The notes under the pieces were generated by a model. The model made no database searches and had not been told where the DNA came from. It saw only the letters and a program-made list of their open reading frames with translations. The translations under genes were made by a program, and so were the position numbers. 64,000 nucleotides of DNA, from positions 289,051 to 353,050 of the forward strand of contig CAUYUJ010014593.1 in the NCBI GenBank assembly GCA_963575745.1. Direction: 5' to 3'. This document shows positions 4,367 through 52,680 of this stretch, piece after piece (position 1 is the first letter of the stretch; each line of letters begins with the position of its first letter). Source of the DNA: Prorocentrum cordatum. Lineage: Eukaryota > Sar > Dinophyceae > Prorocentrales > Prorocentraceae.

Positions 4367-4467
4367 CTGCGCGAAGAGGCCTTCCAAGGCCACCCCTTTG
4401 CTCGCTTTGTTTCCCTAGATGTGTCTCTTCGTCCCTTTCCCGTCAGCTCTGAAGGGCAGGGAAACTA

Positions 4468-4700
4468 AATGGGCTGGTGGGGATACTTTTTTTGATCTGC
4501 GGCCCGCAAGGAAGAGTCCAGAGGGCGTGTCAATCAGGCTGACTGGGGCACAGAGCCAGATAATTCGTGCAACATGCAGACAAATTGGGGAACTGGTGGG
4601 GATACTTTTTTTGATTTGCGGCCCGCAAGGAAAAGTCCAGAGGGCGGGATGATAGGCAATGGGGCGCAATGCCAGAAGATTAACATGCAGAGACCCGGCG
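4468..4700 (+). repeat. Tandem duplication, two ~112-bp units
   Basis: The block CTGGTGGGGATACTTTTTTT plus GCGGCCCGCAAGGAA appears at about 4,474 and again at about 4,586. Shared downstream landmarks (GTCCAGAGGGCG, a GGGGC.CA.AG/TGCCAGA segment, AACATGCAGA) confirm duplication of the whole unit. Confidence 0.85.
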
Positions 4701-12279: not shown

Positions 12280-12584
12280 TGAAAAATCAGGAGCGATGGG
12301 GCGAATGATACGAATGATACATAACAAATAAGGTGGGATGCGCGGGGTTCCGCCCGGGGTGTACAGGGCCGCTGGGGTGGGGGCGCTTGACAAAACTATA
12401 CGCATCCGCTTTGACCCCGTCTGCCTCGGCGCCCGAACGGAGCAGCTTCGCGGTGTGCGCGTGTACCCAGCCAAACAGCATGGAGGAATTACACGGATGG
12501 ATCGGTCGAGGAAACGTTCTCTGTCCACCGCGCCTTGTCCAGCCACGCCGGGGTGTGGAAAATGGAGTTAGACAGGAAGTCAGA

Positions 12585-14410: not shown

Positions 14411-14640
14411 AGGGAGTCCCCACGTCACGAGGGATGGTCCTACGAGGGGCGGGGCGGTTGCGCCTCGGCGCCGATAACAATGTAAAACAGATCACAAGCA
14501 GGGGACACGGCCAGCAGGCTCACTCTTTTGAGACCATAAAATACTATCCGGCGCAATGGCTTGCCAATCCTCTCCGAAAGCCGTGTGGATGAATGTTGCA
14601 ACGTCATCGAGCCAACTTTTATTGGGTCGATGTTGCAACC
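14411..14640. other. Spacer between oppositely oriented satellite arrays
   Basis: This unique GC-rich segment has no satellite units. It separates two arrays of the same satellite that point in opposite directions. No gene is visible. Confidence 0.8.
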
Positions 14641-17460
14641 TCCCGAACCCTAGGATTTCAAATCTAAATTCCTCTCTAACTCCATTTTCCTTCCTGGCCC
14701 CGGATGGCCAGAATCCTCTCTAACTCTAAGATTTCCTATCCACATTCCTCTCAAACTCCACTTTCCTTCCTGGCCCCGGATGGCCAAAATGCCCTCCAAA
14801 TGTAGGAATTCCTATCTAAATTCGTCTCTAACTCCACGTTCCTTCCTGGCCCAGGTTGGCCAGGATCCTCTCTACTCCTAGGACGTCCGATCTGAATTCC
14901 TCTCGAACTCCATTTTCCTTCCCTACCCCAGTTGGCCACAAGCCTCTCTAACTCTAGGGCTTCCCATCGAAATGCCTCTCCAACTCTATGTTTCTTCCTG
15001 GCCCTGGATGGCCAGACTCCGTTCTCACTCTAGAAGCTCTGATCGAAACTCCTCTCGAACTCCATTTTCCTTCCTGGCCCCGGATGGCCAGAATCCTGTT
15101 TTTCTCAAAGCTTCCGATCTAAATTCCTGACGAACTCCATGTTCCTTCCTGGCCACGGTGGCCAGAATCATCTCGAACACTACGGATGGCCAGAATCCTT
15201 CCTGACCCCGGATGGCCAGAATCCTCTCGAACTCCATTGTCCTTCCTGGCCCCGGATGGCCAGAATCCTCTCTAATTGTAGGACGTCCTGTCTAAATTTC
15301 TCTCTAACTCCACTTTCCTTCCTGGCCCCGATTGGCCACAAGCCTCTCTAACTCCAGGATGTCATATCAAAATTCCTCTCTAACTCCATTGTCCTTCGTG
15401 GCTCCGGATGGCCAGAATGCTCTCTAACTCTAGGACGTCCCATCAAAATTCCTCTCTAGCTCCACTTTCCTTCTTGGCCCCAAACGGCCAGAACCCTAAC
15501 TCTAAGATTTCAGAACAAACTTCCTCTCTAACTCCATGTTCCTTCCTGGCCCCGAATGGCCAACAGGCTTTCTAACGCTAGGATGTCAGATACAATTTCC
15601 TCTCAAACTCCACTTTCCTTCCTGGCCCCGGATGGCCACAATTCGGTTTAAAAGAGAGCTTCCGATCTAATTTCCTCTCGAACTCTGTTTTCCTTCCTGG
15701 CCCCTAAAGATCAGAATCCTCGCTAACTCTAGGACTTCCTATCTAAATTCCTCTCTAACTCCATTATCATTCCTGGTCCTGGATGGCCAGAATCCTCTCT
15801 AACTCAACGCTTCTATAAATCTAAATCCATGTCGAATCTAAGTTCCTCTCGAACTCCATTTTCCTTCCTGGCCCCGGATGGCCAGAATCCTGTCTAACTC
15901 TAGGATGTCCAATCTAAATCCCTCTCGAAACCCATTTTCCTTCCTGGCCCCGGATGGCCAGAATCTTGTCTAGCTCTAGGATTTCCGATCTAAAGTCCTC
16001 TCTAAGTCTACTTCCTGCCTGGCCACAAATGGCAAGAATCCTGTCCAACTCCCCGATGTCCGATCTAAATATCTCTCTAACTCCATGTTCCTTCCTGCCC
16101 CCGAATGGCCGGAATCCACTCAAACTCTAGAAAGTCCTAAATTCCTCTCTAACTCCATCTTCCTTTCTGGCCGCGTATGGCCAGAATCCTCTCTAATTGC
16201 AGGATGTCCGATTTAACTCATCTCTAACTCCATAATTCCTTGTCCCAGATGGCCAGAATCCTTTCTCATTCTAGAACTTCCTATCTAAATTCCTATCTAA
16301 CTCCACTTTCCTTCCTGGCCCCGATTGGCCACAAGCCTCTCTAACTCTAGGATGTCATATCAAAGAGCAACATTCCTCTCTAACTCCATTGTCCTTCCTT
16401 GCCCCAGATGGCCAGAATGCTCTCTAACTCTAGGACTTTCCATCTAAAGTCCTCTCTAACTCCATTGTCTTTCCTGGTCCCGAATGGCCAGAACCCTCTC
16501 CAACTCTGAGATGTCCGTTTAAATTCCTCTGAATCCACTCAAACTCTAGGATGTCATATCACAACTAATCTCTGACTCCATTTTCCTTCCTGCCCCCCAG
16601 TGGCCAGAATCCTCTCTAACGCTGGGACTCCCTATCTAAATTTCTCTCTTACTCCGTGTTCCTGTCTGGCCCTGTGTGGCCAGAATCATCTCAAACTCTA
16701 GGATGTCCGATCTACATGCTTCTCTGACTCCATTGTCCTTCGTGGACCCAGATGGCCAGAATCCCTTCAAACTCTGAGATGTCCTCAATAAATTCCGCTC
16801 TAACTTCATCTTCCTTCCTGGACCCGAATGGCCAGAATCCTCTCTAACACTAGGATTTCTTATCAACATGCATCTCTAACTCCATTTTGTCCTGGCCCAG
16901 GCCCGAATTCTCTCTGACGCTCGGATGTCATATCAAAGTTCCTCTCTTTCTTAATTTTCCTAATGGCCAGAATGCTCTCCAACTTTAGGGCATCCGAACA
17001 AAACTCCTCTCTAACTCCATTTTCCTTCCTGCCCCCCAATGGCCAGAATCTTCTCTAACTCTAGGACTTCTTATCTAAATTCCTCTCTAACTCCATTGTC
17101 CTTCCTGGCCCCGAATGTCCAGAATCCGATCTAACTCTAGGAGTTCCCATCTAAATTCGCTTTTGACCACCCTCGCTTCCAAGAGATACCAAACGATGCC
17201 AAATTGCAGCCTGTACTGGTCAGGCCGCTTGACGAGGAGGCGCGTGGTATGGCTTGGTTTTGCCTGGAAGCGAAAGCGGGGCAGGTAATTCACGCTCTGA
17301 CTAACTCCAGTTCATTCCTGGCCACGAGTGGCAAGAATCCTCTCAAACTCTAGGACGTCCGATCTAAATTCCTTCCTAAGTCCATTTCCTTCCTGGTCCC
17401 GAATGGTCGTAATCCTCTCTAACTCTATGATTCCCATTCAAAATCTTACTCTAGGAATTT
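14641..17460 (-). repeat. ~75-bp satellite array, right arm (inverted)
   Basis: The consensus is the reverse complement of the 12.6-14.4 kb array: TCTAACTCTAGGATTTCC, GATCTAAATTCCTCTC, TAACTCCATTTTCC, TTCCTGGCCCCGGATGGCCA, GAATCC. Roughly 37 units are present. The pair of arrays is therefore an inverted repeat of about 1.8 and 2.8 kb. Confidence 0.95.
17153..17291. mobile_element. Small palindromic insertion in the satellite (MITE-like)
   Basis: The satellite register breaks at 17,157 and resumes at about 17,287. The inserted ~130 bp begins with CTCGCTTCCAAGAGATACCA and ends with GGTTTTGCCTGGAAGCGAAA; the outer CGCTTCCA/TGGAAGCG and inner ATACCA/TGGTAT are inverted. AATTC is present on both sides and could be a target-site duplication. 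There is no coding capacity. Confidence 0.5.
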
Positions 17461-33326: not shown

Positions 33327-33545
33327 ACCTCCTCCTCCTCCTCCTCCTCCTCCTCCTNNNNNNNNNNNNNNNNNNNNNNNNNNNNNNNNNNNNNNNNNNN
33401 NNNNNNNNNNNNNNNNNNNNNNNNNNNNNNNNNNNNNNNNNNNNNNNNNNNNNNNNNGAGGAGGAGGAGGAGGAGGAGGAGGAGGGGGAGGAGGAGGAGG
33501 AGGAGGAGGAGGAGGAGGAGGAGGAGGGGAGGGGAGGGGGGAGGA
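33327..33545. repeat. (CTC)n - 100-base gap - (GAG)n
   Basis: Pure CTC triplets run up to 33,357. Exactly 100 N occupy 33,358-33,457. GAG/GGAGGG triplets follow to about 33,545. The two flanks are complementary, so the true sequence could be a triplet palindrome, or the scaffold join may be wrong. Poly-X frames across the gap carry no information. Confidence 0.95.
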
Positions 33546-33814: not shown

Positions 33815-34000
33815 GCATAACCTGGGGGGGTGTCGGAGACCCCCCCTTGGGGTGTCGGAGAGGGTGTCGGGGACCCCCCCCCGCAGGTGTCAGTGCGGCT
33901 GTCGGGGCCACCCCCCGCGGGTGTCGGAGCGTGCGTCGCGTGCACCCCCCGCGGGTGTCGGAGGGCGTGTCGGGAGTACCCCCGCCTCTTCCCCGGCCCG
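33815..34000 (+). repeat. GTGTCGG...CCCCCCCGC minisatellite (~50 bp)
   Basis: GTGTCGGAG/GTGTCGGGG alternates with ACCCCCC(C)GCGGGTGTCGG. About four to five units precede the large retroelement. Confidence 0.8.
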
Positions 34001-34059
34001 ATTTGTATGTCACCCCCCAAACCACGCTCAGCCATCCACCCAGGGGCACGTGTATGCTG

Positions 34060-34679
34060 CAACTCCAGAAGCAGTTGCGACAAGTATTCACCAGAGCATT
34101 TTTTCGCACAGGTTGATCGCCCCCTTCAAGGCGCATTGGGCGCGGCACCCACCAGTCGGCACAAGAAGCCCTAACGGAAGAAGCATAACATCAAATAACG
34201 CAGCCATAACGGCGGATGACGCATGCGCGCGCCTACAAGACGCAGCAGGAAGAAGCCCCGACGCAGGCGGGCCGGCGAGCCCCTTCTCCCCCCTAACCGA
34301 AGGGGTTCTTGAAGAAATGCTCTCCGTGGCCGCCGGTAGCAGTCCCGGCCCCAGCCCCAGCAGGCTGAGGACAGTTGACCCCGCCTGGCCCAACCTCAGG
34401 GGAGACCCGCCTCTGGGGAGTCCCGCTGAGCGACCCTCGCAGGAAGCCGGGGCAGTGCCCCCCCCCTCAAAAAAACAACAACTTCCCAACAGAGGAGGCT
34501 GGACACCGATGGGCAGCGTGCAGGAGCCAGCGCGGCCGAGGGGGCCACACCACAACACCAGCCTTCAGACCAGGCAGAACGAAAGGGCAGAAGCAGGGCG
34601 CGGAGGGGCTCGGTACGACCGCAGACTAGGAGCCGAAGCAGGCGGACCCAACAAACAGGCCACCGGGAAACTAGGCTAA
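34060..34679 (+). CDS. ORF1-like low-complexity region of the LINE
   Basis: A continuous frame ends at TAA 34,677-34,679. It is rich in Pro, Ser, Ala, Gly and Arg (for example SPGPSPSRLRTVDPAWPNLR) with no recognisable fold, and may be a disordered nucleic-acid-binding leader. The formal frame begins upstream across the assembly gap, but sequence before ~34,060 is minisatellite, so I start the feature there. A second open frame, 34,694-34,999, overlaps the start of the methyltransferase frame. Confidence 0.35.
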
Positions 34680-34833
34680 GACGCAGGGCAAGGATGGGAG
34701 CGCCAAGGACGGCAGAGAACAACCCCCGGACCCTGATAACATTGTGGGAATCTCACCCGGTAGCTCCAACACAGACGCGACCTGGAAGGGGCCGCGCGCA
34801 CCTTAGCGGAGCAGCAAGGAGCAAGAGAAATAA

Positions 34834-36562
34834 CAAGAAGGGCAAGACCGAGAATCACCCCCCCCGATCCCCAGTGAACCCACCGCAGCCCCTCAACCGA
34901 TTGACGTTCTCCAGCAGGTATGGTCGCAGCACAGGGGCAGCGAAACTGGGCTCGCCCCAGTGGCCCCCCCCAACCAGGTACTTGCCGCCTATCAGGTAGC
35001 AGGATTGGACAACAGTACCATCCGGGAGGCACTTCAGTCCCTGCATGAACAAGGCGCCATCCGTTTAGGACCTGACCAAGCAGCCGACGCCATCACGGGC
35101 AGGCTACACGTTCAGGAAGTGGCGGAACGGGATTTCACACAGCAGGAACAGAGGACAGGCGGAGACGGACATGCAGCGCAGCACTCCCGCACGGGCGAAA
35201 GCTCCCCCCTACACCTGGTGTCGCTATTCGACGGCTGGGGTATCGCCAGACTCGCGGTAGGGGGCCTCGCACGGAAACTAGACGGAGTTAACAACTTCCG
35301 ATCATCTGTATTTGTGGAACACAACAGGACGGCAGCAGAGGCGGCGGCGCGCAGATGGGCAAATGCACCAGACCCCTAGAAGGAGGCCCCCAGCATAGAC
35401 AAATAGCGGAAGACGTTTGGGACTTGTTCAGGCGGAAAGACCCCCGCGACAACAGATCCCTTTGGGAGAAGCACCTGGACTCACTCGAGCAAGAAAGCAC
35501 CCTCCTAATAGTGGCAGGACTCCCGTGCAACAACATATCGGCTGCTGGCGCGCATGCTGGCAGGGGTGGACTGGCAGGAGCACAGCCCTCCCACTTCTTC
35601 GCTATCCCAACAGCATGGTACCTCGCGAACAAAAGGAGACCAGACGTTACCATACTCGTCCTCGTGGAAAACGTTGCCTCCATGCAGCCTGTACACCGAG
35701 ATGCTACGAGGACTGCCATGGGTGAACTTAGCCCGGAATGGGCGGTCAAAATGAATGCAGGGGGCCACGTGGCCAGTCCAAGGGAAAGGCTGCGGATGGC
35801 AAACTTCCCCCCCCCCCCCCATCCAGCACGATAACACACGACCGACTCCCCAGCCCTTGGGAGCCCGGATGGGCATGCAGGCTTGGCGGCCGAATCCCCA
35901 GGTGGACGCAATCCAGGACAGCCCAGGAGGACCCGGGCGCCATTCTACCCTGTAGCTACCAGACCCATCTCCTCTGCCTTCTATACCATGAATACAGCAG
36001 CTATAGGTGGTCTCTTCGGAATCCGACAGATCTGAAGCAAGGGGCGAGGCAGGTACTCGGCGAGCGTGGCGCAGAACAACCGTTTCCAGGGTGCACAGAA
36101 GGCCTCGGGCCGGTAATGCCCAGTAAAGAAAGGAAGAGCCCGGCCGCGGGGGCCAAGGTCAAGGCGCGGGGGAGGTGGCTAGTTCAAGAAGGAAGAACCC
36201 ACGGACTCAGACCCCCCAGTGCCGACGAAAGAGCAAGAACCATAGGCTTGGCGGGATGCCACCGTGGACCCGGAGTGAGCGACAAGGCTCTCTGCGACGC
36301 GGTCGGCATGCACTTCGACCCTCGCTGCCTCCAACGCAGAATAGCCACAGCAATGCGGGCCTGGAGCGCAGGGGTGCAACGGGCGCCAGCCTGCCCCCCC
36401 GCCTCGACAGGCCCCCAGATAGCAAGCGCGCGGGCAGCAGCGCGAGCATATGCCGGAAGACAATGCCCGCGGGCACAGCTCAGGAACCACCCGTTCCCAG
36501 ACGACATCGCAGAGCAGTTGGGGCGCGAGGAAGCCCTCCTTCCTGAGTGGACACGCCCCTAG
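34834..36562 (+). pseudogene. C5 cytosine-specific DNA methyltransferase domain
   Basis: The protein would transfer methyl from S-adenosylmethionine to carbon 5 of cytosine. Motif I is LVSLFDGWGIARLAVGGL (about 35,215-35,268, SAM binding) and motif II is FVEHNRTAA (about 35,311). Motif IV is VAGLPCNNISAAG with the catalytic Cys codon at 35,526-35,528. Motif VI is VLVENVASM (about 35,658-35,685) and motif VIII is SPRERLRMANF (about 35,777-35,809). Motifs IX and X are in RPPSADERARTIGL and ALCDAVGMHFDP (about 36,210-36,330). The ~200 residues before motif I are unassigned. The frame is broken after motif II, at CCCC near 35,370, where one extra C would keep the frame, and again at a 14-C run (35,807-35,820). 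All signature motifs are nonetheless visible. The 3' frame ends at TAG 36,562, and the endonuclease follows in the same frame. Confidence 0.8.
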
Positions 36563-37828
36563 ATTCGACCAGGGGCCCCAATACGTTCCACAGAGCGCTG
36601 GGGTCCCCCCCCCCGACACGCACTAGTGCCGGGGATGCGCGCGCTTGCCAGGGCACAGGCACGACGCGCGCTCAACGAAGCACTCGAAGCCAGGTGTCAA
36701 CACAAGATCCGCGGACCAAGAAGCCTCTGGTCTCTTCTACACACAGACCCCTGGTCACAACCCGCATGGGAAACCGCGTGTGGGAACCTCACACTCGACG
36801 ATGCGACGCAAGCTCTCAACGCCACCCCCCGGAGCAGCCTCCCCAGATTTAGCTGCTGGAACGTGAGATACCTCAGAAGCTGCGCTGCCAGTGAGAACCA
36901 GATCAAACACGCATGACTGACACAAGTCACGATGAATAACAGGATCGCTCTAATTCAAGAGACCCACCGGTCCGAACATGAGACCGAAGTGTGGGAGACC
37001 ATGTTTCCAGCGAGGACAGTAGTGGCCTCTCCCGGCTTCCTCGGGCCGACCGGGGGCCTCGCCAGAGGAGTAGGCATCCTCCTCCCGCATGGGACTCCCC
37101 TCCTGGAGCAGCGAGACATAGTCCCAGGCTGCGCAGTTGCTGCTACTGTTCAACAGGGCGATAGGAGGGTCCGCCTTGCGTCAATTTACCTCCCCCCTAC
37201 CGGGGAGGAGGAAACCCTTGTCGACATTGCCATGGCGGTTGAGCAGTGGGAGCCGCTCGACGCATACTGGGGAGGGGATGCCAACCTACAACTTGAGCAC
37301 CCAAGAGACGGAGAGCTAGAGGCAGCTGCCCTCCTGAGGGACATCCTGACCAGCTCTGGCTCGGCTGCCGTGCACATGCATGGCCCCGCTAGAATTGACA
37401 AGGATAGTGAGTCCCAGATTGACATGTGTGCCTGCCCAGTCAGTCATATTTACGCTTCAGAGCCTCGGAAATCCTGGAGGCCCACGCTGTCAGACCACGC
37501 TCTCGTATCGCTCGAACCCCAGGGCGCGAGGGGGGCAAGAAGGGACGACACCGAGAAAGCCGCAGACCTCAGGAGCCTCCCAACCGCGGCGCACGTGGAG
37601 CTCTGACAGCTGTGCGCTCACCTTGAACTCTCCTTTGGCGTACCGCCCGTCAACCTAAGCGGCCTCGTCCAACCCGCTGACTGGATTAGACCTGCCCGCC
37701 CAGGTGGGTTCCCCGACCAACGCCCGGACAACGATGATGGTGACACCTCCCGCAAGCCCACCGACCCGACACACCATGTGCCAAGAGAGCCAAGTGACGA
37801 CGAGCCAGCCCCGCCCATCCTCCCACCC
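36563..37828 (+). pseudogene. LINE AP-like endonuclease (exonuclease-endonuclease-phosphatase fold)
   Basis: In LINEs this domain nicks target DNA to prime reverse transcription. The domain begins with SCWNVRYLRS (about 36,850, the N of the WNVRGL-type motif). It continues with IALIQETHR (about 36,944; catalytic Glu), GVGILLPHG, VRLASIYLPP (about 37,170), YWGGDANLQ (about 37,265; GDxN-type) and LSDHALVSL (about 37,490; the terminal SDH). One frame covers everything, interrupted by TGA at 36,914-36,916 and TGA at 37,604-37,606; the same frame then continues about 70 codons to TGA near 37,830. Flanking domains are the methyltransferase upstream and the RT-related region downstream. Confidence 0.8.
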
Positions 37829-37830
37829 TG

Positions 37831-39090
37831 ATGAGGTTCGGCAGGCACGCCCTCTCCTCGGCTCTGCATGACTGGTGGAAGAAGTGGAAGGCACACAGAG
37901 CGCGGACTTCCCCAGGCCTGCTGCTCGCCGCAGCCAGTCAAAAACAAGAAACGACGCGCCCAGTGGGAGCCCTGGCAGCCTGGTTGTACGAGTACGGGTG
38001 GGACGGGCAGGACCTAACCCCAGAGCAAGCTGGACGGCGGCTCAGAACCTGGGACGCCGCGGTCACGCAGAGAAGAGCTGCCCGACTTTCCCCCGCACAA
38101 AGAGGCCCAGGAGCTGAACGGCCCCCCCCTGCAGCCCACCGCAGAACTGGGCGGGGGATATACAAGAAGACCCACGCAATCCTAGGCGTCCGGGACCGCA
38201 ATGGTACATGGCACGACAGGCCCAACCAGATTGACAACGTCCTTTGGGACAGTCGCAGTGCAATATGGCACTCCGCCCCCCCCCCCCCCCCCTACCTGGC
38301 TCAGCTGGCAGGCTCCTTGACCTCTATTTCTAAGGATACCCTGGGATTGACATCCCCAGCAGGCCAAGGCCCAGGTGGGCCAAGCTTGCTTCTACCGTCC
38401 TCACACCCAGCGGGAGCGCCCCGGGGGTGGACGGGATACCCTATCAGGTTTATCATCCCGGGGGCAAGGTTCGTCGCCTGCCTCATTGCCCAAGCATGGT
38501 ACGCCGCGGACCTCAACCCATCACTCATCGAGGAGGTGCCAGGGCCCTCCGTGGACCTCTTGGCATGGATTAGGAAAAAGCTTGGCGCCGAAGGTCCCAA
38601 CGACATGAGACCGTTGCAACTCCCCACATGCATTCGACGACTGTACGGCGCATCCCTGGCCGACCTAGCGCTGCGCGCTGCCATCGCCCTCCCCTGGGCC
38701 GCCAAGGCCGCCGGTCTCCTGGTCGAGGCACGCAGATGCAGGGGCACACGCACGGAGGATTCGCCTACCCTCCGTGCTGCGCTGGAGGAAGTCCCCGTTC
38801 ACTTCGAACAAGACGGGGACAGCGTGCTCATCTCAGGGCTACCAGGAGACCTGATCAAGGCACTCGCGGAATGCAACGCAGGAAGCCGAGGCCCGATCCG
38901 GTGTTCACCCTATCAACACGTCTGCAACTGCACCTTCAAGACAGCGCTCGTCCCGGCTGGCAACCATGATTGGCCCTATGCAAAGGCACGTGGGACCGCC
39001 CCCTTCCTAAACTTAGGGAGAGAGCCCTTGCTTTGCACCTGGCCAAAAGGTCCCCATCCCGCACGGCCGCGGCCTGGAACGCCTACCTGA
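37831..39090 (+). pseudogene. RT-related region of the LINE (catalytic box not seen)
   Basis: A 419-codon frame. Residues ~110-150 (ILGVRDRNGTWHDRPNQIDN) match the linker that precedes LINE RTs. GWTGYPIRFI and NDMRPLQLPTCIRRLY resemble the PG.DG.P and RPI.L finger motifs. I find neither the D..KAF nor the F/YxDD palm motif in any frame between 38,600 and 39,000, so the palm appears deleted or replaced. A 17-C run (38,276-38,292) sits in the middle and reads as poly-Pro. Assignment rests on order (endonuclease before, zinc and RNase H after) as much as on motifs. Confidence 0.5.
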
Positions 39091-40620
39091 TTTCCCTGGC
39101 TCCCTACGCCGCGCACTACGCCCCCCCCCCCCCCCCCCCCCCCGACATGGGACAAGAGCGTGGACTACGGGCCCAACTGAGGACTGCTCTCGGGTTGGCT
39201 GGGGCCTCTTGGGTCCCTGACTTAGTGCTGACCGGGCTGGGCATCCGCTTCCAAGTACAGGGCGCTCCCAGGTGCCCTGTTGCGACGGCCCGCGCGGTCG
39301 CCGCAAGAGCATTCGCACTCAACGACTTCTGGGGGCCCAGTACCGTCAAAAAGCGAGCAAGCATCAGATGGAACAAGCTGCTGAAATGGGGAGCCCGCGC
39401 AGCACGGATGCCCGAGACATCCCCCCCGCGACCCAAGATGGTCACCGAACGAAAGGCCGCCCGGGCCCTGCTCCTCACGAGACAGCAACCCCACCTACTG
39501 GAAGGCAGATACTTCGGCAGGATCACCTACACTGTTACACGGCGGCCTGGGCCCAAATGAATAGCCGACACTTCTCAGAGTGGCTCCAGAACACCAGCCA
39601 AGGAAGAAGATGGCAGCCCTCCAGAAGGGAGGAGTGGCAATTGCTACGCCACTGCTCCACCTTCACCGCTGCACCTCACGCGATGAGGATCCTTTGCGAC
39701 GGCCTTCCTGGCTCGGCAAGACGCAGGGGAGACGACGAAAGAATGCCCCACAGGTGTCGCTGCGGGGCGCCGGCCAGCAAAGTGTGGATCACCGCCGGCC
39801 CGAACGACGAGGGGGCGGCCTGGTGTGCAAGATGCGCCGGCACCGGCCCGCACACCTTCGCCCTCTGGTAAACCCTACCCCCCGACATGCTCCCACTCCC
39901 TCTAAGGGTTCAGGCTGACGCATATGTAAGTACGGGGGGGCGCCTACGGCCACCCGTCAGAATAGGACTCTATGGGCGCTGCTGTGGGCTGGGTGAGGCG
40001 ACCACAGAGCACGTCTGGCATTGGTGCCCAGCAGCAGCCCTTGTCTGGGGCACCATACGGGGGCCAGACGACCCACCGACCCTCGCCCAAGCCATTTCCA
40101 GCGAGGGCGAGCATCAGCCGTTACTCGCCAAGATTCTACATCAGATCTCCTTCAGATACTGCGTCAACCTCACAGCTTCCCCCCTCGAAGCAGGTGGCGC
40201 CGCCAGACTCATCCTGCGCGGGTTGGCCACGCTCGACGCTGATCACCACGAGGAGAGCGATGAAGAGGAGCACAGGGACAACGAGCCCCCAAGAATTAGC
40301 AGTCCAGACGAGACAGCCGTGTGGACCGTCCTGCGGGACACATGTCGCACGTGCAACCCCTGCCCCGCCCCCGCTGGTTCGGTCCGTGGCACGGCCAGGC
40401 CCCGCCTACAGCGGCGCGCGGGCAGGGCAGGAGGCGAGATCCGCAGGCTCCCGATTGTCACCAGACACCACAACCCAGAGGACAGAATAGTGGTTTTGCA
40501 GTCCCCCCACACGCGGGCTGCATGGATGCCTCCGGGCAGAAGCTGGTTCCCTTGCCCAAGGACGGACAACTTCCCCACTGCCAGCTGGTCGACCATCTTC
40601 TGCCGGGAGGTGCAGGCTCC
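39000..40620 (+). pseudogene. LINE post-RT region with Cys/His zinc-binding segment
   Basis: Three consecutive frames are used: 38,970-39,560, 39,272-39,871 and, past an in-frame TAA, 39,887-40,702. The first contains RTAAAWNAYLISLAPYAAHY and the helical ALNDFWGPSTVKKRASIRWN, reminiscent of the thumb/connector of dinoflagellate LINEs. The second has MPHRCRCGAP and GAAWCARCAGTGPH, paired CxC/CxxC. The third has GRCCGLGEATTEHVWHWCP (about 39,975-40,030), which matches the C-C-H-C zinc-binding segment after LINE RT domains. A 23-C run (39,121-39,143) interrupts the first frame. Confidence 0.6.
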
Positions 40621-40622
40621 AC

Positions 40623-41372
40623 GCTATCGCGCTAACGGCCAACGCGAGACTCGAGCCTGGCGACGAGGTCACTGTACGCGATTCTCCCTTCCCCGACTCT
40701 GACTCCACCAAATGGCCGTACGATGTCACCTTCGACGGAGGGGCAATAACCATTGGAAACTGTGAAAAGGTGTCGGGCGCCGGGGCCATCCTCTGGCACC
40801 ACAACCCTAACACCGGGTCGCCCCGGGTACTCGCCATAACCATCGTTGCACTCCCAGACTGCAGCAGTGCTTAGATGGCAGAGGTGGCAGGTTGCCGGGC
40901 CGGGCTGGCGCTGCCCCCTCACCTAGATAGCCAAACCCGGATGGCTCGGATCGTGGGCGACAACCTGGCGGCCGTGAGATATGGGGCCGGCACCGCCAGA
41001 TACCGAAGGCCCCACCTGGCTCAGCAGATGGAGGACGCCTTAGCACAAGTTGAAAGTGCTGGGCGGGTCCTCACGTGGCAGGCCGTCAGACGCAGACTGA
41101 ATAGAGCTGCTGATAGCCTTGCCACCATTGGGGTTTACTTGGCGGACTCCCTCCGCAGGGAAGGCGTCACAGCTGCCACCTCTCATATACAGTGGAATGG
41201 TAACACCCCCTCTCAGCCAGCGCACTTTCCCGACATCGATCTTCGGGAAAGAAACCTCTGCGACCCTATCGCGGCAGCAGAAGCTGCTCACTTGCTCGTG
41301 CACCCCCCTTCCGCTCCCCTCTCTGCCCCGCTTCGATCCGATCGTCGAGCGACCGATCGCCGCAACATCTGA
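40623..41372 (+). pseudogene. LINE RNase H domain
   Basis: RNase H removes the RNA template strand after first-strand synthesis. VTFDGGAITIGN (about 40,725; first Asp) is followed by SGAGAILWHH, then MAEVAGCRAGLAL (40,875; Glu), RIVGDNLAAVRYG (about 40,948; Asp) and RRLNRAADSLATIGV (about 41,095; the terminal Asn/Asp). One TAG at 40,872-40,874 lies just before the Glu-bearing helix; the frame is otherwise intact. All four acidic positions of the family are present, which is striking beside the missing RT box. Confidence 0.8.
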
Positions 41373-41464
41373 GTTTCCGTCGCGGTGGCTCAAGATTTCC
41401 CCCCGCGCGCCCATTTGCCAGTAACGCAGCTATCGGCCGCGCTTCCCCCTTACGTTCCAGCAGG

Positions 41465-44400
41465 ATGCCAAAGGAGAAGAAGAGCAACAACGGGCCCCTG
41501 GCCAGACGGCCTTCCCCCATCCAACGCTGCGAGCAAGGTCCCCGCGCAGAAGACGCTCTCCGACCCTTCCGTGCTCGGGGATGCACATGGCTCAGATGGG
41601 CACATTTCAACCATGAGTGGTGCTGGTGGTGTGAGATCTGCCAGAAGTATTGCGACGGCAAGGAACACTTCCTGGGCGGGGGCCACTTCGCGGAGGCCGC
41701 GAAGCAGAAGGGGGCCGGGTGGCCGGACCCCAGAATATACACTCAGCAAGGCAACCTCTGGACCAGGACCCAAGGATCGACCACAGGCAGCGTGACAGGT
41801 CTCAAAATTGAGAGGCAACTATGGCCAGGCTGGGAACTTCCTGGCCCAGTCAAGGACGGCGGCCGCGCGTGCCTACCAGGCTGGACCTTATCCGAGGACT
41901 GGGGCCACGTACCGGTCAACTTCCCCTTTCGCGACGACAAGTTCGACTTCTCCATTTCCACCGACGCCATGCGCTCGACTGACCTCCGACCGCCCAGCCA
42001 ATGCCGACATGGATGGGGGGTCACCCCATGGCGCACTACAGGAGCCTGGGGGGGCACCGACCCGCCCCCCCCTAACCCGGCCGCAGCAGGGGGGCCGCGC
42101 GCCCCGCCGACTCAGAAGGAGAGACACGCTGGCTCCAGCAGGGCCTCTTCGCAGGACCCGTTGGATCGGACAGGGCAACCGCGAGGGGACGAGGACAACT
42201 GGGCAAGCGACGCTCCCCCCCAAGACAGCTAGACGACACCAGACTCTCTTGCAGTCGCAGCAGCTAAGGCTATCATACGGCTATACGCCATGCCCGCTGA
42301 CAGCCCAGGGGCTCAATTCCGCCTGCACACCCCCCTGGGCACGGTTCCCAACGGAGTCAACCTGCCAAAGCACTGGGAGCAGGATCCACGACAAAGAGGC
42401 TGCACTCTGTGCAGGCTAGCCTGGGCCGAGTGCATGGCAGCCACTGAAACAGTATGGGACGGCTCCGCGAAGGCCAGAACATATTTGGCACGTAAAAAGA
42501 GCTGTGCCCTGGAGGCGACGGTCACCCCCATCAGCGAGCGGTCCACCTGCTGCCTTCTCGACAAGTACAAGCTTCGCAACGCTTCCCCCCCGCGGGGCGG
42601 AAAGCTGCTTTTGCGTCTACAATGGCCAGTCGAGTTCAAGCTGATGCTCCGAGGATTGGAAGGGGGACTGGACGCGCAGTCACGCACATTGCTTCTCAGT
42701 CTCACCAGCCCAACGGAGGACCAGATTACTACCCTCAAACTCGTGCGGCCCCCGGACCTCGGAGGCACCATTCCCCACAACGAGTGCGACGTCATCGGAC
42801 TAAGGGCAGGCTCCAAGTACCTCGCCAACCAATCCCTGGCCTGGTGCGACTCCAGCCAGATTGGGGAGTTACTCCCACACGGAGCGCCCGCGAAGTCAGA
42901 CAAGGAAGGTGACGTCGTGCACCGAGTGGACAAAGCTCCCCCCGAGCTGCAATACTGGCGGATTTCGAACGCCATCAGTGAGATCTACAAACTGCAGCAG
43001 GCCCCCGACGATCTGGTAGGTGCACCGCTCGACGTCATTACATTCCTGCTCAACCACCGCGCCATCGACAGAAAGGACAGGGTACGGGCTAACGAAGTGG
43101 AGAATACCAGAACGCGCAGCAGCTCCCTTCTTTCCAGGGCGAGAGCCACCATCGAGGCCAAGGCACTCAGCTTATCCCACGCAGTCGAGGTAGACGGCAC
43201 GGGACAACTGCAACAGCAGAACAAGGGGCCATCTGCCTTCCCATTCACGGACGACGAAGTTGACAGCCCTACAGGACAGGTTCCCCCCGCCACCAACCTG
43301 AACGACGCCGCCCAACGCCGCCGACTCAATGAGGGCGCTACCAAGGCCCTGGTCGCCACCACTCGACACCACGTCACGGTGGTTCATGGGCCCCCAGGGA
43401 CCGGCAAAACATTCTTTTCAGTTGCCACAATGGACGCCTGGGCAAGCTCGCTTCCCAAGGGGCAGGCAGTGGCCCTCACGGCAGGGTCGAACACAACCGC
43501 CGACAAACCCGCCATCGGCCTTGGGGTTGCGCACGAAGAGGGCAGGTTGGCGCCCGGAGCCTGCTTCCCCAACAGGTGCGTCAGGCAAGCCAAGGACGCA
43601 CGTGTTGCGCAGAAGCTCGCCCGCCTCACAACTGGGGGACATTTTCACAGAACGCACAACCGCCCCCCTCACCAGAGCGGACCCTCGAAGGAATTCATCG
43701 CCTTCCGCGCGCAGTTGCTGGGGGACGCCAAGATGATCATCGCAGCGCACGAGGCGGCAGAGCCCCTCAAACTTGCCTCCCCGGTTGCCCTGCTCATTAT
43801 CGACGAAGCAGGGCAGGCCCGCGAGCTGATGGCCGCAATGTCTCTCGTCAGCGTCATGCGATCTGGCGGGCACCTATTGCTGGTCGGCGACAGCTTCCCC
43901 CCATCGCCCTCTCCAGCAAAGCAGCAGACCGCGGCCTGCGTCTCGATATTCGACCCGCTGCGCAACGCGCTAGGTGAGGGCACCTCAGCAGTGGTGCAAC
44001 TGACCCTCTGTTACCGCATGCACCCCCTCCTCCTGTCCTGGCCCAGCGTGGTCTTCTACAACAAGGCAATGCGGACAGGACTCATCGACCCACCCAGGCA
44101 AAGGCCACTGGTAGCAGGACTACCGTGGCAGGAGATACTGCCCTGGGGCAGGGCACGGCTCATTGAATTGGCAAAGGCCACCGAGTCCACCCCGGAGGAC
44201 CTGGAGAAGCTATTGAGGGACCTTCAGCCTACTCCACAACACCTAGAGGAGAGACATCGTTTCCTCCTGGTCGACAACCCCTCCCTCGAGGTCTCGTCCA
44301 ACCTCCGCTCTGGGTACGCGAATCTCCCAGAGGTTGCGCAGGCGGTGGACATCGTGCGGGCGCTCTTGCCCGCCATGGAGAAGGGGGCCACAGTCCGCGT

Positions 44401-45169
44401 AGTGGTTGGCTATCAATTGCAGTGTGCTGTGCTCGAGAACGGATGGCCTCAGACAGGGCGCAGCATCAGCGGCACCCTGGGGCAGACCAAGGCCAGGGAG
44501 AAAGGAGTCGGCAAATATGAGGCAATCAGAGCAAGCGGTTGCACCTCTCTCCCCCCCGAGCGCGACAGCGACCACAGGGGATACGAACGCGTGTTCGAAC
44601 AATGGAGTTCCCCCCTCACTGGAATCGACCTACGCTTCCAAGGGCTGCGTCAAGTTGCAGAGGAGTACCTGGCCAACGGCAGACTGACGATCTCCACCAT
44701 AGACTCAAGCCAGGGCGGGGAGGCGGACATTGTGATCTACCTGACCACGCGTTCCAACTTTTGGCACGACTGGGGCTTCATGGACAACCCCAACAGAGTG
44801 AACGTCGCAATCGCGCGGGCCACCTCCAACGCGGTCATAATCGGGGACGGAAGGATGTTCGGCGCTGCCACAGGAGCACACCTTAGGGAGCTCTCCGAGT
44901 ACGGGAGGCTGGCCAATCTATGGGTCCGCTTCCAGGGGACCAACCTGGGCAAGAGAACCACGCTACGCATTGATCAGAAATTTGACCCCATCGTGGACCT
45001 CGCGACATGGATTCCCCCCGCTCCCACACACAGGGGACGACAGCATACAAGGCCTAGACGACGCCATCAAGAAGGCCAAAGCCAGTATGGAGATCACCTT
45101 CGCAGACCGCATCGCGGCAACACTCGGTCCTCAGTTCTCTTGGGACAAGCTGAGTGGTGCTCTCTCTGA
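41465..45169 (+). pseudogene. Zinc-finger UPF1-like SF1 helicase
   Basis: One frame runs from 41,465 to 45,169, broken only by TAG at 42,230-42,232 (~1,235 codons). The N-terminal part has CWWCEICQKYC...HFLGGGHFAEA, a C2H2-like finger (about 41,625-41,690). Counting from the Met at 42,290, helicase motifs are: Q-like LNEGATKAL, motif I GPPGTGKT (residues 367-374), Ia LTAGSNTTADKPA, II DEAGQ (505-509), III LLVGDSF (~529-535), the YRMHP box (~575), IV VVVGYQLQ, V TIDSSQGGEADIV (~803) and VI NRVNVAIARA (~835). Order and signatures are those of UPF1/SMG-2-like RNA/DNA helicases, 5'-3' translocases. Every ATPase motif is intact. It begins ~90 bp after the RNase H frame, on the same strand, which links it to the retroelement. 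Confidence 0.85.
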
Positions 45170-46136
45170 TAGCATGCAGAAGTTGGTTGACGACCCCGCA
45201 GTGGCCATCCTTCTGTACACAGTGTCAGGGCTACACCCCCACCAGTGGCAAATTGGGGCCACCCCCAGGCAGCCGGGCAGCTTAGACAGGAAGGCCTGGA
45301 GTCACCTTGGCTACTGCTTAGATGTGGAAGTCGGAATCGATGCCAGCAACCTTGTGTATAACCTCACATGGGCAGCCCTGGTCTGGTTCCTTGGACTGGG
45401 TACGCCGTGGCGCGACAAGCAGTTCGGCGTCGCATACGACTCGCTCCCACCGCTGCCCCACATGGTTGGGGACAACCGCCGCCCCAAGGCCTCAAGCCGC
45501 TGTGCCCCCCGGAGCACGCTCCCACAGTTTCCCGCGGCCTGGAGCAGCCCCGCCTGCCGGTGCAGACGCCACAGGGTGCACCCAGGAATGAAGAACCTTC
45601 ATTCCCTACTCAATACCGACAAGATCGATACAGATTTCACGCAATCCTTAGTATGAGACGACGGGCTGCCCCTCAATCCCCTCGCATTCAGGGTGCTACT
45701 AGTGGTGATGGTGCTGCAACTACGCGAGCCCCGCGCCACGCTCTGGCCCTTCCCGTACCCAGAGGCCACAGGCGACATCCTGGAGGCCATGCTGGGCCTG
45801 TGCCTTCCGTGGCAGGATGCACACAAAGAGTTCCGCACCCAGTTCGCTGAGACGTGGGGTTTCCAGCTCGCGGACCTCGCCCCCCTACGCACCAGGCTAG
45901 CGGAGGTCATACACCACACTAGCACCTTGGCCACATATGCCCATCACCATAAGGTTGCAGCCAAGCATAAATGTCCGAAGACATGGACAGGAATGCAGGC
46001 ACACGACTTCACCCTGGAGGCCCCCCTGCGCGTGCTGGAAACTTTAGTCCGGCCTGCCGACGTTACGCAGCCCGCATACCATGGGCGACCTCCGGTACAT
46101 TGGGGGCGGCATAGCAATCTCCAACCACCGACTTGA
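45019..46136 (+). pseudogene. Unassigned C-terminal extension of the helicase polyprotein
   Basis: After the helicase frame meets a C6 run (45,014-45,019), the alternative frame reads on smoothly: GLDDAIKKAKASMEITFADR, GYCLDVEVGIDASNLVYNLT and, after a TGA at 45,654-45,656, LREPRATLWPFPYPEATGDI and ETLVRPADV. It stays in one frame for ~370 codons apart from that TGA. It is rich in helices, contains no repeats and has no domain I recognise. One extra C in the run would join it to the helicase, so I read it as the same ancestral polyprotein. Confidence 0.5.
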
Positions 46137-46530
46137 CGAGGACATCCCGGCCTCCCCGGCCCCAGGAACAACGCTGTTCCCCCCAATAGTACGCGACGAA
46201 CGCTTCTGCAGGCGGCAGAAGGATGCTACCTACAATTGCGACGGATGCACCAGCGTCGGACTACATGGCAGCAGGCACCTGGGAAGACGACGACACACGG
46301 GAGCTGCTAGCCCAGAACCGTGCGCAGGCGTACACGGAAGGAAAGAATTGCAGATGGCTCTGCGAGCGCTGCTGGGTCAGCTCGCTGGAAAGGAAGGGGG
46401 TGCACGTCCCCGAACCCGACGCGACAGAGCGCAGTAGCAGGAAGTCCATGCAGTGGCTATTACAAGAACACAAACGCAGACTGGATGAACACCGCGCACG
46501 GAAAAGGGCCAAGACACTCAGCCGAGCGAC
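46137..46530 (+). pseudogene. Putative zinc-ribbon tail
   Basis: Two overlapping frames carry paired cysteines: RFCRRQKDATYNCDGC (about 46,203-46,250), CRWLCERCW (about 46,350) and HCAGCRNRVSW (about 46,545). Between them is a basic helical stretch, QWLLQEHKRRLDEHRARKRA. This looks like a nucleic-acid-binding end of the element, but no family is recognised. Confidence 0.35.
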
Positions 46531-46921
46531 ATCGACGTCGCTGCATTGCGCCGGCTGTCGAAACCGAGTCTCTTGGATCTCGAAAACCTCCAGCAATCCC
46601 ATGGAGTTCTTCGTCAGCATCGGCTTCGCCGGGGGCTGCTACAGAGGTTGGAGCTCCATGTGCCGTCTGGGACCCACGAGTGGCACGCGCTGTTCCCATG
46701 GGAGCCTGGCGCACCGTTGAATATCGGGGGGCGGGGCGCCGATTGTCGTGTCGACGATGCGTTTGTCTTGCGCGCCATTGCGCGATCACTGGAGTGCATG
46801 GGAGTCTTCACCACGCATATCAATGACTTGGGACAGCGGCCTGCGGTGACAGCGTGTGTCGAATGATGCGAACGCTATTGCGCGGAATTGTCGGGCGTGC
46901 CGGATGAACGAGAACTCATTT

Positions 46922-46957
46922 TGTATATATATTTATATGTATATATATATATATATT
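46922..46957. repeat. (AT)n microsatellite
   Basis: TATATATATATTTATATGTA and following TA repeats, unusual in this GC-rich region. Confidence 0.9.
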
Positions 46958-46959
46958 GG

Positions 46960-47580
46960 GCCCCAGCGATCTCGCGACCACGTGGGCCCGCGTCGCTCTC
47001 CGACGGTCGATGTTGTTCGGCCTCGGCGCCCGCGGACAGCGACAGGCCATCTATGCGCGTGAACGGCGGCGCGAAATTCTTCGGCTGGTACTGGGCCATT
47101 CCCGCGCAGGGCGACGCCATTGAGACGGCCGCGAGGACGCTGGCGGAGCGTGCGATCATGGACCTGGCCGGGATACCGGTCATCATCAACAGTGACCGAG
47201 GGCAAATGTTCGCCCGTTCTGTTGTCGAGGATTTGGCGCGAACATTTGGAATCGAGCATAGTTTCGGGGCGCCCATTCACCTGCAGTTCCCGTTTGCCGC
47301 GGAGCGGCCGCGCATGGGGGCGCAAGACATCGACGCGAGCATTCATGGGGGATCGACGGGATTGGGATGCAGTTGTGGCAGTGTTTCAATGGTCGGTCCG
47401 CGCCCCAGCACACCCCCCACGATATCATCACGGGCATGAAGCCGAGGGTGCTTTTGGATCCGACACAGTCCACGCCGACATTTGCGAAGCAGGTTTCAAT
47501 CACCGACTAAGTGAATACTTTTGCGGAACACGCACAGAACGTTTGCAAGTTCGCGTCGGAACAGCACGATCTAATTCATT
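46960..47580 (+). pseudogene. Gypsy-type integrase core remnant
   Basis: FFGWYWAIPAQGDAIETAAR and LAGIPVIINSDRGQMFARSV (about 47,075-47,225) match the region around the second catalytic Asp of retroelement integrases; FGIEHSFGAPIHLQFPFAAE (about 47,250-47,305) corresponds to the HPQ...E block that carries the catalytic Glu. After frameshifts near 47,330 and 47,400, DWDAVVAVFQWSVRAPAHT and DIITGMKPRVLLDPT resemble the NxSxHxxTGxxPxE/LxxG tail of integrases. Integrase inserts LTR-retroelement DNA. The zinc HHCC domain and the first Asp are not visible; the 5' side ends at the AT microsatellite. Confidence 0.65.
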
Positions 47581-51310: not shown

Positions 51311-52680
51311 CAGACCCACGTTGGAACCCAAGGTGAATGCAGAGGAAGGCTCAGGCGGGGGCCCCCAGCCCCTACGGGGGCCGCATTTCATGTTGGTAAT
51401 CCGAGCGGGTCATCCTCAAACCTGTAACCGTCGTAACTTTCGGGCTCCTGAGGTTAAAATATGGAGGAAGTCTTCGGCGGGGGCCTTGTCTGTGGGTGAA
51501 TTGCGAGGAAGTCTCAGGCGGGGGCCTCTTCCCTATGGGGCCGGCACGTCATGTTGGTAATCCGTGCGGGTCATCCTCAAACTTGTGAGCGTCGTCAATG
51601 TTGATCTCTTGAAACTTGAATATGGGGGAAGTATCAGGCGGGGACTTTGTCCGTGAGTGATTTGCAGGGAAGTCTCAGGCGGGGGCCCCTCCTTATGAGG
51701 CCTGCGCTTCACGTTGGTATTCCCAGCGGGTCATCCTCAAATTTGTAATTGTTGTCGATTTCGGGCTCCTGAGGCCAGAATATAGAGGAAGTCTTAGGCG
51801 GGAGCTCCGTCTGCGAATGAATTGTGAGGAAGTCTCAGGCGGGGCCCCGTTCTATATGGGCCCCGCATTTCATGTTGGCAATCCGAGCAGGTCATCCTCA
51901 AACGTGTAATTGTCGTCACTTTTGGGTCCCTGAGGCTTGAATTTTGAGGAAATACCAAGCGGGGGCCTCGTCTGTGGGTGAGTTCTGAGGAAGTCTCAGG
52001 CGGGAGCCCCTTCTCCTTATTGGGGCCGCACTTCATGTTGGTAATCCGAGCGGGTCATCCAACACTTGTAATTGTCGTCATTTTTGGGTTCCTGAGGCTT
52101 GAATATGGAGGAAGTATCAGGCGGAATCCACGACTGTGAGTGAATTGCGAAGAAGTCCTAGGCGGGGGCGTCTTCCTTATGGGGCCGACATTTCACGTTG
52201 GTAAACCGAGCGGGTCATCTTCAAACCTGTAATTGTCGTCACTTTTGGGCTCCTGAATCTTGAGTATAGGAGAAGTATCAGGCGGGGGCCTTGTCCGTGA
52301 GTGAATTGCAGGGAGGTCTCAGGCGGGGCCCCCTCCCTCATGGGGCCGGCATTTCATATGGGTAATCCGAGCGGGTCATCCTGAAACCTGCAACTGTCGT
52401 CACTTTTGGTTTCCTGACGCCAGAATATGGAGGGAGTCTTTCGCGGAGGCTTCGCATGTGGGTGAATTCCGAGGAAGTTTCAGGCAGGGGCCCCTTCCCC
52501 CGATGGGGGCCGCATTTCATGTTGGTAATCCGAGCGTGTCATCCTCGAACTTGTAACTGTTGTCACTTTCGGGCTCCTGAGGCCAGAATATAGAGGAAGT
52601 AGGCGGGGGCCTTGTCTGTGAGTGACTTGCGAGGAAGTCTCAGGCGGGAGCCCCCTCCCTATGGAGGCCCCTCCATATGG
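51311..52680 (+). repeat. ~160-bp satellite array, eight to nine units
   Basis: GTCATCCTCAAAC-type blocks fall near 51,408, 51,567, 51,732, 51,890, 52,055, 52,215, 52,376 and 52,536, a period of 159-165 bp. Each unit holds two GAAGT(C/A)TCAGGCGGGGGCC blocks, so it is itself a diverged dimer. Confidence 0.95.

Follow-up and report, generated by a model that had tools for sequence, protein, structure and literature searches.

The 64,000-nucleotide stretch of Prorocentrum cordatum DNA analysed here (GenBank assembly GCA_963575745.1, contig CAUYUJ010014593.1, forward-strand positions 289,051 to 353,050; hereafter the window, in whose coordinates positions are given) carries on its plus strand, in this order, motifs of a DNMT-like cytosine methyltransferase, an apurinic/apyrimidinic (AP) endonuclease, reverse transcriptase (RT) fingers, an RNase H and a superfamily 1 (SF1) helicase. 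We assign them to a truncated copy of a long interspersed nuclear element (LINE) with three open reading frames (ORFs), the third of which, ORF3, encodes the helicase (Table 1). An earlier interpretation made without database searches (the sequence-only reading) had placed a retrotransposon-like unit of ~12 kb at 34060-46530 with these parts in this order. Translation together with Pfam and PDB matches bears out the order and the strand, at a strength that differs from part to part. The proposed extent is also nearly exact, as other copies align with the window at the nucleotide level from 34043 (34040 in one alignment) up to 46519; what does not hold is the ~12-kb unit, since the window has a dead copy, truncated at both ends, of a LINE family with three ORFs whose full element appears to be far larger.

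In comparison with other copies, the window copy has lost ~549 nt (544 in one comparison) carrying RT motifs A-C at 38666/38667 and a further ~145 nt at 38973, and its helicase has a corrupted motif III and an altered motif VI. With its RT catalytic core lost and its reading frames interrupted, this copy is unable to copy itself. Of the means to prime, copy, methylate and unwind its own DNA/RNA that the earlier suggestion gave to the element, copying is thus lost in this copy, and the other three are putative. The C-run-rich composition described in the sequence-only reading is real: the element in the window has 14 sense-strand C-runs of at least 7 nt, where 200 first-order Markov simulations gave 4.4 on average and 10 at most, and across seven other copies there are 53 such C-runs versus seven G-runs. 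Slippage or sequencing error at C-runs could break frames. C homopolymers of up to 23 nt occur on the LINE sense strand at 35807, 38276, 39121 and other sites in 34043-46519, and also in L009, L020, L024 and L025; where one such site could be matched between copies, the C-rich tract measures 6-7 nt in six of them, interrupted by one T in some, but 14 nt in copy C19488 and 22 nt in the window. The GC content of the window is 59.0%.

Table 1. Parts of the LINE copy and related tails in the window
Feature	Positions	Strand	Basis
LINE copy, truncated at both ends	34043..46519	+	Other copies align at the nucleotide level from 34043 to 46519
ORF1 part, probable cytosine-5 methyltransferase, two frames; FDGWG, VEHN, GLPCNN, LVENVAS, RERLRMANF	34834..35831	+	
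Conserved region between DNMT and endonuclease, no function assigned	36062..36562	+	Co-linear in copies
AP-type endonuclease of ORF2; WNVR, QETH, GGDANLQL, SDHAL; in-frame stop at 36914	36857..37603	+	Motifs and alignment of copies
Reverse transcriptase remnant, fingers kept	37798..39087	+	Comparison with copies
Post-RT part of ORF2, Cys/His motifs, two frames	39221..40699	+	Co-linear in copies
RNase H domain and end of ORF2 (stop 41370-41372)	40716..41372	+	RVT_3, 3.1e-5
ORF3 N-terminal part with Cys/His finger WWCEICQKYCDGKEHFLGGGH; then TAG at 42230	41465..42229	+	Conserved in copies
ORF3 UPF1-like SF1 helicase, 978 codons open	42233..45169	+	Pfam/PDB matches
ORF3 continuation, other frames; ~66 nt lost near 46067; broken off at 46519	45024..46519	+	
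Two tandem 3' tails resembling those of the LINE copies, each ending in an A-run and TATCCCCACCAG	4400..4648	-	

The helicase as a part of the LINE

Within its own genome the helicase is repeated: a search of the assembly (4,128,499,153 bases in 21,875 contigs) gave at least 55 match rows, with 47 scored of 3776 first-look candidates. Coordinates were compared among the best matches, viz., 150 of 1394 candidates for the RNase H, 150 of 1192 for the DNMT and, for the start of ORF3, a list of 150 rows (149 scored of 13861 candidates); the pair counts that follow hold among the matches listed and leave out the window unless stated. For 95 of 149 RNase H matches an ORF3 start lies 67-647 nt downstream on the same strand, and for none of the 149 is there an ORF3 start on the opposite strand within 20 kb; two further same-strand pairs are separated by -11.7 and +15.9 kb. 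The DNMT and RNase H matches form 67 pairs at 4.2-6.5 kb, besides another two separated by 15.4 and 17.5 kb, and the DNMT and ORF3 matches form 55 pairs at 5.9-7.1 kb with one more at 16.2 kb, none of either kind being on opposite strands. With the window included there are 96 RNase H-ORF3 pairs, of which 93 are distinct by their lengths and gap, and therefore few can be duplicate contigs. Among the 54 RNase H matches without a listed ORF3, nine were read (five fetched earlier and four additionally) and ORF3 is present in all nine.

Viewed from the helicase, the 10 kb upstream of 20 copies show an RNase H directly upstream in 14, seven of which have the full DNMT-endonuclease-RT-RNase H series at near-constant spacing. 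Copy U021 has ORF2 and has lost the RNase H piece, copy U022 has the DNMT joined to ORF3, which we read as an internal deletion, and in copies U014-U017 LINE sequence was not found in the 10 kb upstream, which we read as 5' truncations. The point at which homology among copies begins lies anywhere between ORF1 and the interior of ORF3, the pattern expected from nested 5' truncation of LINEs.

The two sides of the junction have also diverged together. Nucleotide distances in the RNase H region and in the N-terminal part of ORF3 (its 255 codons and another 133 at the start of the helicase frame) correlate with r = 0.974 over 13 copies, and those in the endonuclease and RT with the same part of ORF3 with r = 0.932 over ten; the positive control within ORF2, endonuclease and RT against the RNase H region, gave r = 0.942 over nine copies, and in each of the three comparisons 0 of 5000 permutations reached the observed r. 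Further, copy C16610 is 5' truncated inside the RNase H and carries ORF3 to a 3' end reading ...CATATCAAAAAAGTG, after which stands a 33-nt target-site duplication (TSD) that is also found just before the 5' junction, with 27-28 nt of a partial second copy of the 33-nt sequence between it and the element. Thus, a single insertion event carried the RNase H remnant, ORF3 and the 3' untranslated region (UTR).

Some observations weigh against this assignment. ORF2 is not directly upstream in five of the 20 helicase copies, 45 of the 149 RNase H matches are unread for ORF3, the co-divergence test covers, of ORF3, the N-terminus and the first 133 codons of the helicase frame but not the catalytic core, a clean TSD is seen in one of the five copies with both junctions read (one being ambiguous and three having none), and the evidence for the element is all genomic. 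The five copies without an adjoining ORF2 are what a separate gene or element lying next to, or inserted beside, this LINE copy would lead one to expect, but the near-constant spacing at 95 loci with no opposite orientation among the matches listed, the co-divergence (r = 0.97), the TSD flanking an ORF2-ORF3 unit and the recurrence of the same junction at many loci make such a neighbour a very remote prospect. An assembly misjoin or chimeric scaffold, to which the 100-N gap at 33358-33457 might point, is hardly conceivable, as this sole gap in the window is outside the LINE copy and the same junction is present in scores of other contigs. We are therefore highly confident, as regards identity and membership and not the role, that the helicase belongs to the element and that the stretch is a copy of a three-ORF dinoflagellate LINE. 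The sequence-only reading had drawn the same conclusion about the helicase, and the co-linear copies that it proposed to look for in the assembly occur at scores of loci. It had also named two outcomes that would speak for the contrary, LINE copies ending before the helicase while the helicase occurs alone elsewhere, and a misjoin at the gap; none of the copies that were read stops short of ORF3, and no gap is present inside the copy.

Ends and full size of the element

Upstream of 34043 other copies continue, U013 and U024 being 89% alike to the edge of the fetched sequence. Past 46519 six other copies continue co-linearly and ORF3 runs ~2.6 kb further in them; its end reads DFDRK, DFARK or GSARK followed by a stop in four copies, and a fifth, C15497, is without a stop at that point. 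A 3' UTR with internal repeats follows ORF3, and the 3' ends of copies have a short A-run only. Measured from the helicase start in different copies, 9.6 kb of sequence upstream and 9.4 kb of sequence downstream together point to a full element of at least ~19 kb, and the summed frame pieces of the window and C16610 would make ORF3 roughly 2,500 residues long.

The sequence-only reading had proposed to define ends and TSDs by aligning copies. This gave the limits of the window copy and one clean TSD; the other four copies with both junctions read lack a clean one. Both junctions of C16362, C13975 and C17620 were searched for a TSD with nothing convincing, and a 68-nt repeat at C7825, which sits in a nest of tail repeats, was not counted as a clean TSD. 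A sequence similar to TATCCCCACCAG stands after the tails of several copies, which suggests either a preferred insertion site or nested insertions. At L035 and L041 a repeat of ~120 nt ending in CCGAAAAAAATATCCC(A)ACCAG, SINE-like in look, adjoins LINE tails. The hallmarks of a LINE, viz., RT and endonuclease, 5' truncation and TSD, are all present, the endonuclease being recognised by motifs and the TSD being clean in one copy.

Identity of the ORF3 helicase

The window helicase matches the Pfam families AAA_12 (3.2e-25) and AAA_11 (6.8e-12) and aligns to UPF1 with 2.5e-14. It has GPPGTGKT at about 43388 and IIDEAGQA at about 43808, which, going by the SF1 helicase motif names, we take to be motifs I and II. 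A profile of eight helicase sequences finds in the PDB yeast NAM7/UPF1 (7.8e-27) and human UPF1, then SMUBP2 (2e-23), SEN1 (2e-20) and DNA2, with nidovirus helicases far behind (8e-5 to 1e-3). The motifs are largely kept in seven other aligned copies, with GPPGTGKT exact in five of the seven, GDPxxLPP in all seven and VAITRATS in all four that reach motif VI. The SF1 core shared with UPF1/NAM7 and IGHMBP2 (GPPGTGKT, DEAGQ, GDPKQLPP, YRMHP, QGGEAD and NVAITRA) is found in most copies that reach these motifs. Unlike these proteins, ORF3 is without a Pfam-recognised cysteine-histidine domain of the UPF1 type and has instead a short N-terminal Cys/His finger and a long unrecognised C-terminal extension; the finger region in the window gave a zf-met match with E 0.11, and the C-terminal pieces tested had no relative in Pfam or the PDB.

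A LINE helicase could also be captured from an RNA virus, as in the insect TRAS and Jockey elements. The helicase of copy C19488 matches PF01443 (Viral_helicase1) above the cut-off (1.1e-5, 25.9 bits against 21), and this together with the nidovirus matches speaks for such a capture. The PF01443 match is, however, weaker than and overlaps those of the same copy to AAA_11 (5e-24) and AAA_12 (1e-23), the window helicase has no PF01443 match at 0.01, and UPF1/NAM7 (8e-27), SMUBP2 and SEN1 score far better than the viral proteins, so that a viral origin is highly improbable. The ORF3 helicase thus looks like the cellular UPF1/SEN1 kind.

Domains of ORF1 and ORF2

ORF1 holds a probable DNMT3-like methyltransferase. 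The window DNMT matches PF00145 below the cut-off (E 0.027); PF00145 is found in three of eight aligned DNMT pieces (best 0.005) and not at 0.1 in three ORF1 frames of other copies. A DNMT profile of the copies has DNMT3A as its best PDB match (E 0.017), and copies with longer frames display LVSLFDGWGIARLAV, VEHN, GPPCNNLSAAG, LVENVASM and RERLWIAN. The endonuclease had no Pfam match in the window and no PDB match for a four-sequence profile; its WNVR, QETH, GGDANLQL and SDHAL are presumably AP endonuclease motifs. That the DNMT and endonuclease are identified by motifs and sub-threshold scores tells against our description of the element.

The RT has no Pfam match in the window because the ~549 nt with motifs A-C are missing. 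In C19488 the missing stretch is present and includes FCDQNKAFER, GMGGTASPLLW and CVDD, which we take to be motifs A, B and C, respectively; its RT frame matches RVT_1 above the cut-off (1e-7), and that of another copy below it (2.6e-4). The window RNase H, translated with an X in place of one stop, scores 24.3 bits with RVT_3, whose cut-off is 21.6. No PDB relative was found for the RNase H profile, nor for ORF1 and the endonuclease-RT frame.

Selection and CpG content

The median dN/dS of the helicase is 0.215 (27 pairs from eight copies with one entry per copy, range 0.15-0.67), with no pair at 0.8 or above, and that of the ORF3 N-terminus is 0.274. The corresponding medians are 0.125 for the DNMT (35292-35831), 0.126 for both the endonuclease and the RT1 piece, 0.37 for the RTc piece, 0.19 for the part before the RNase H and 0.177 for the RNase H. 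The scripts for dN/dS and for distances discard codons wherever the sequences are locally dissimilar, and dN is lowered by this; the unfiltered helicase median is 0.256 (duplicate copies included) and single close pairs reach 0.62 and 0.86, as dead copies would. The degeneracy of single copies and the looser ORF3 N-terminus are compatible with ORF3 as a passive passenger kept by hitch-hiking alone. Yet the helicase median, obtained over synonymous distances of 0.1-1.5, is comparable to the 0.126-0.37 of the ORF2 parts, and we regard mere hitch-hiking as highly improbable. On these substitution ratios, the helicase is under purifying selection.

The observed/expected (o/e) CpG ratio is 0.734 in ORF1, 0.744 in ORF2 and 0.765 in ORF3, and 0.756 over the element, compared with 0.914 for the remainder of the window; the ratio ranges over 0.746-0.780 in seven copies and over 0.775-0.996 in the flanks of six other copies. 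The similar level in all three ORFs speaks for ORF3 as a part of the element. The distinction is blurred by two of these six flanks (0.775 and 0.788) and a repeat array of the window (0.658), where the ratio is as low.

Other features of the window

Just past the LINE break, 46867-47439 on the plus strand has a weak integrase core match (rve, 1.1e-4, below the cut-off), perhaps the remains of a long terminal repeat (LTR) element. An array of a 76-nt repeat in opposite orientations, with long imperfect inverted repeats, occupies 12562-17158, and a tandem array of about eight copies of a 161-nt repeat occupies 51333-52670. The possibility that a 34-nt tandem repeat at 33828-33983 is a 5' UTR was rejected because this repeat is outside the homology, and the tandem and inverted repeats of the window do not define the element.

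Relation to known LINEs

The closest described system is SymbioLINE-Dnmt, LINEs of Symbiodinium with a DNMT in ORF1 (de Mendoza et al. 2018, PMC5890265). The element described here is likewise a dinoflagellate LINE with a (probable) DNMT in ORF1 and an endonuclease-RT-RNase H series in ORF2. SymbioLINE-Dnmt is reported to have TSDs, no poly(A) tail and CG poverty; here a clean TSD is seen in one of five copies, the 3' ends have a short A-run, and the CpG o/e is below that of the rest of the window but not below that of every flank or repeat. The purifying selection reported on its DNMT has a counterpart in the median dN/dS of 0.125. The host genus differs, and SymbioLINE-Dnmt has two ORFs, the word "helicase" being absent from the main text of that paper, in contrast to the third, roughly 2,500-residue helicase ORF predicted here. 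With ORF3 following ORF2 the architecture departs from the two-ORF plan, and the element is therefore a variant or relative of SymbioLINE-Dnmt and not a plain member.

SF1 helicases in LINEs are also not unprecedented, as the TRAS (R1 clade) and Jockey elements of insects encode one of the virus type (PMC5563155, PMC6338049), kept over long times. Theirs is of the plus-strand RNA virus type and is fused to ORF2 or located in ORF1, whereas here UPF1/NAM7 is far ahead of viral helicases and the UPF1-type helicase has a separate ORF3, in an alga; DNMT is not mentioned in the parts of these two papers drawn on here, in contrast to the probable DNMT of this element. The sequence-only reading knew of no LINE with a UPF1-type helicase. 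This statement agrees with the open-access titles and abstract openings searched, which report neither a UPF1-type helicase ORF3 in a LINE nor a helicase together with a DNMT, and is to be qualified by the virus-type SF1 helicases of the insect LINEs. Thus, LINEs with an SF1 helicase or with a DNMT are already known, and the UPF1-type ORF3 and the combination appear to be new.

Outside its own genome, a protein search with the helicase returned four generic SF1 matches only and no close relative, residues 1-560 of ORF3 had none at E <= 0.01 among 7998 scored, and no close relative was found in viral contigs and genome contigs; the endonuclease-RT frame of another copy has one protein relative in ENA (44% over 64% of the query). 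The protein search scores just those candidates that share most words and are of similar length, and the preparation of the P. cordatum gene set dropped transcript-based gene models containing transposable elements (PMC10666404), so the absence of outside relatives means little.

Proposed working and role of ORF3

We propose an element in which ORF1 would encode the probable DNMT3-like protein, ORF2 the AP endonuclease, RT and RNase H, and ORF3, starting ~100 nt after ORF2, the Cys/His finger, the UPF1-like SF1 helicase and the long C-terminal extension. It would move by target-primed reverse transcription, which we infer from established LINE biology, the truncations and the TSD. In the ribonucleoprotein (RNP) of the element, ORF3 may act as a motor, clearing away RNA structure and bound proteins so that a 19-kb GC-rich (62%) transcript can be copied. 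A role of the predicted helicase activity in keeping this very long template open is what we tentatively favour, at somewhat short of an even chance.

Next in likelihood, and rather unlikely on its own, is that ORF3 shields the polycistronic transcript from host RNA surveillance of the UPF1/MOV10 type, as a decoy or antagonist of UPF1-dependent nonsense-mediated decay (NMD) or of MOV10-type restriction and not as a motor for cDNA synthesis. The ORF3 helicase is closest to UPF1, and an mRNA with three ORFs would presumably appear aberrant to NMD. According to a review (PMC4982230), UPF1 binds RNPs of the L1 proteins ORF1p and ORF2p, its depletion raises L1 expression and lowers retrotransposition, and MOV10, a UPF1-like SF1 helicase, restricts LINEs. 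Against a decoy stand the largely kept catalytic motifs, though a decoy might not need them.

Taken together, we consider the chances evenly balanced that a UPF1-family helicase has been domesticated by a giant three-ORF dinoflagellate LINE family, which depends on it for copying or protecting a very long, methylation-linked transcript. If so, the element would encode its own version of a host protein whose usual work is to bind LINE RNPs and keep them in check. In humans the host helicases UPF1 and MOV10 are found on L1 RNPs, whose fate they alter (PMC4982230). With a LINE that has its own UPF1-type helicase, retained by selection in one unit with a probable DNMT, the role of such helicases for or against retrotransposition becomes a matter of comparison between elements. 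The element, many copies of which keep the UPF1-like helicase gene, also suggests how large a LINE can become (at least ~19 kb), and offers a lead on what fills the giant genomes of dinoflagellates.

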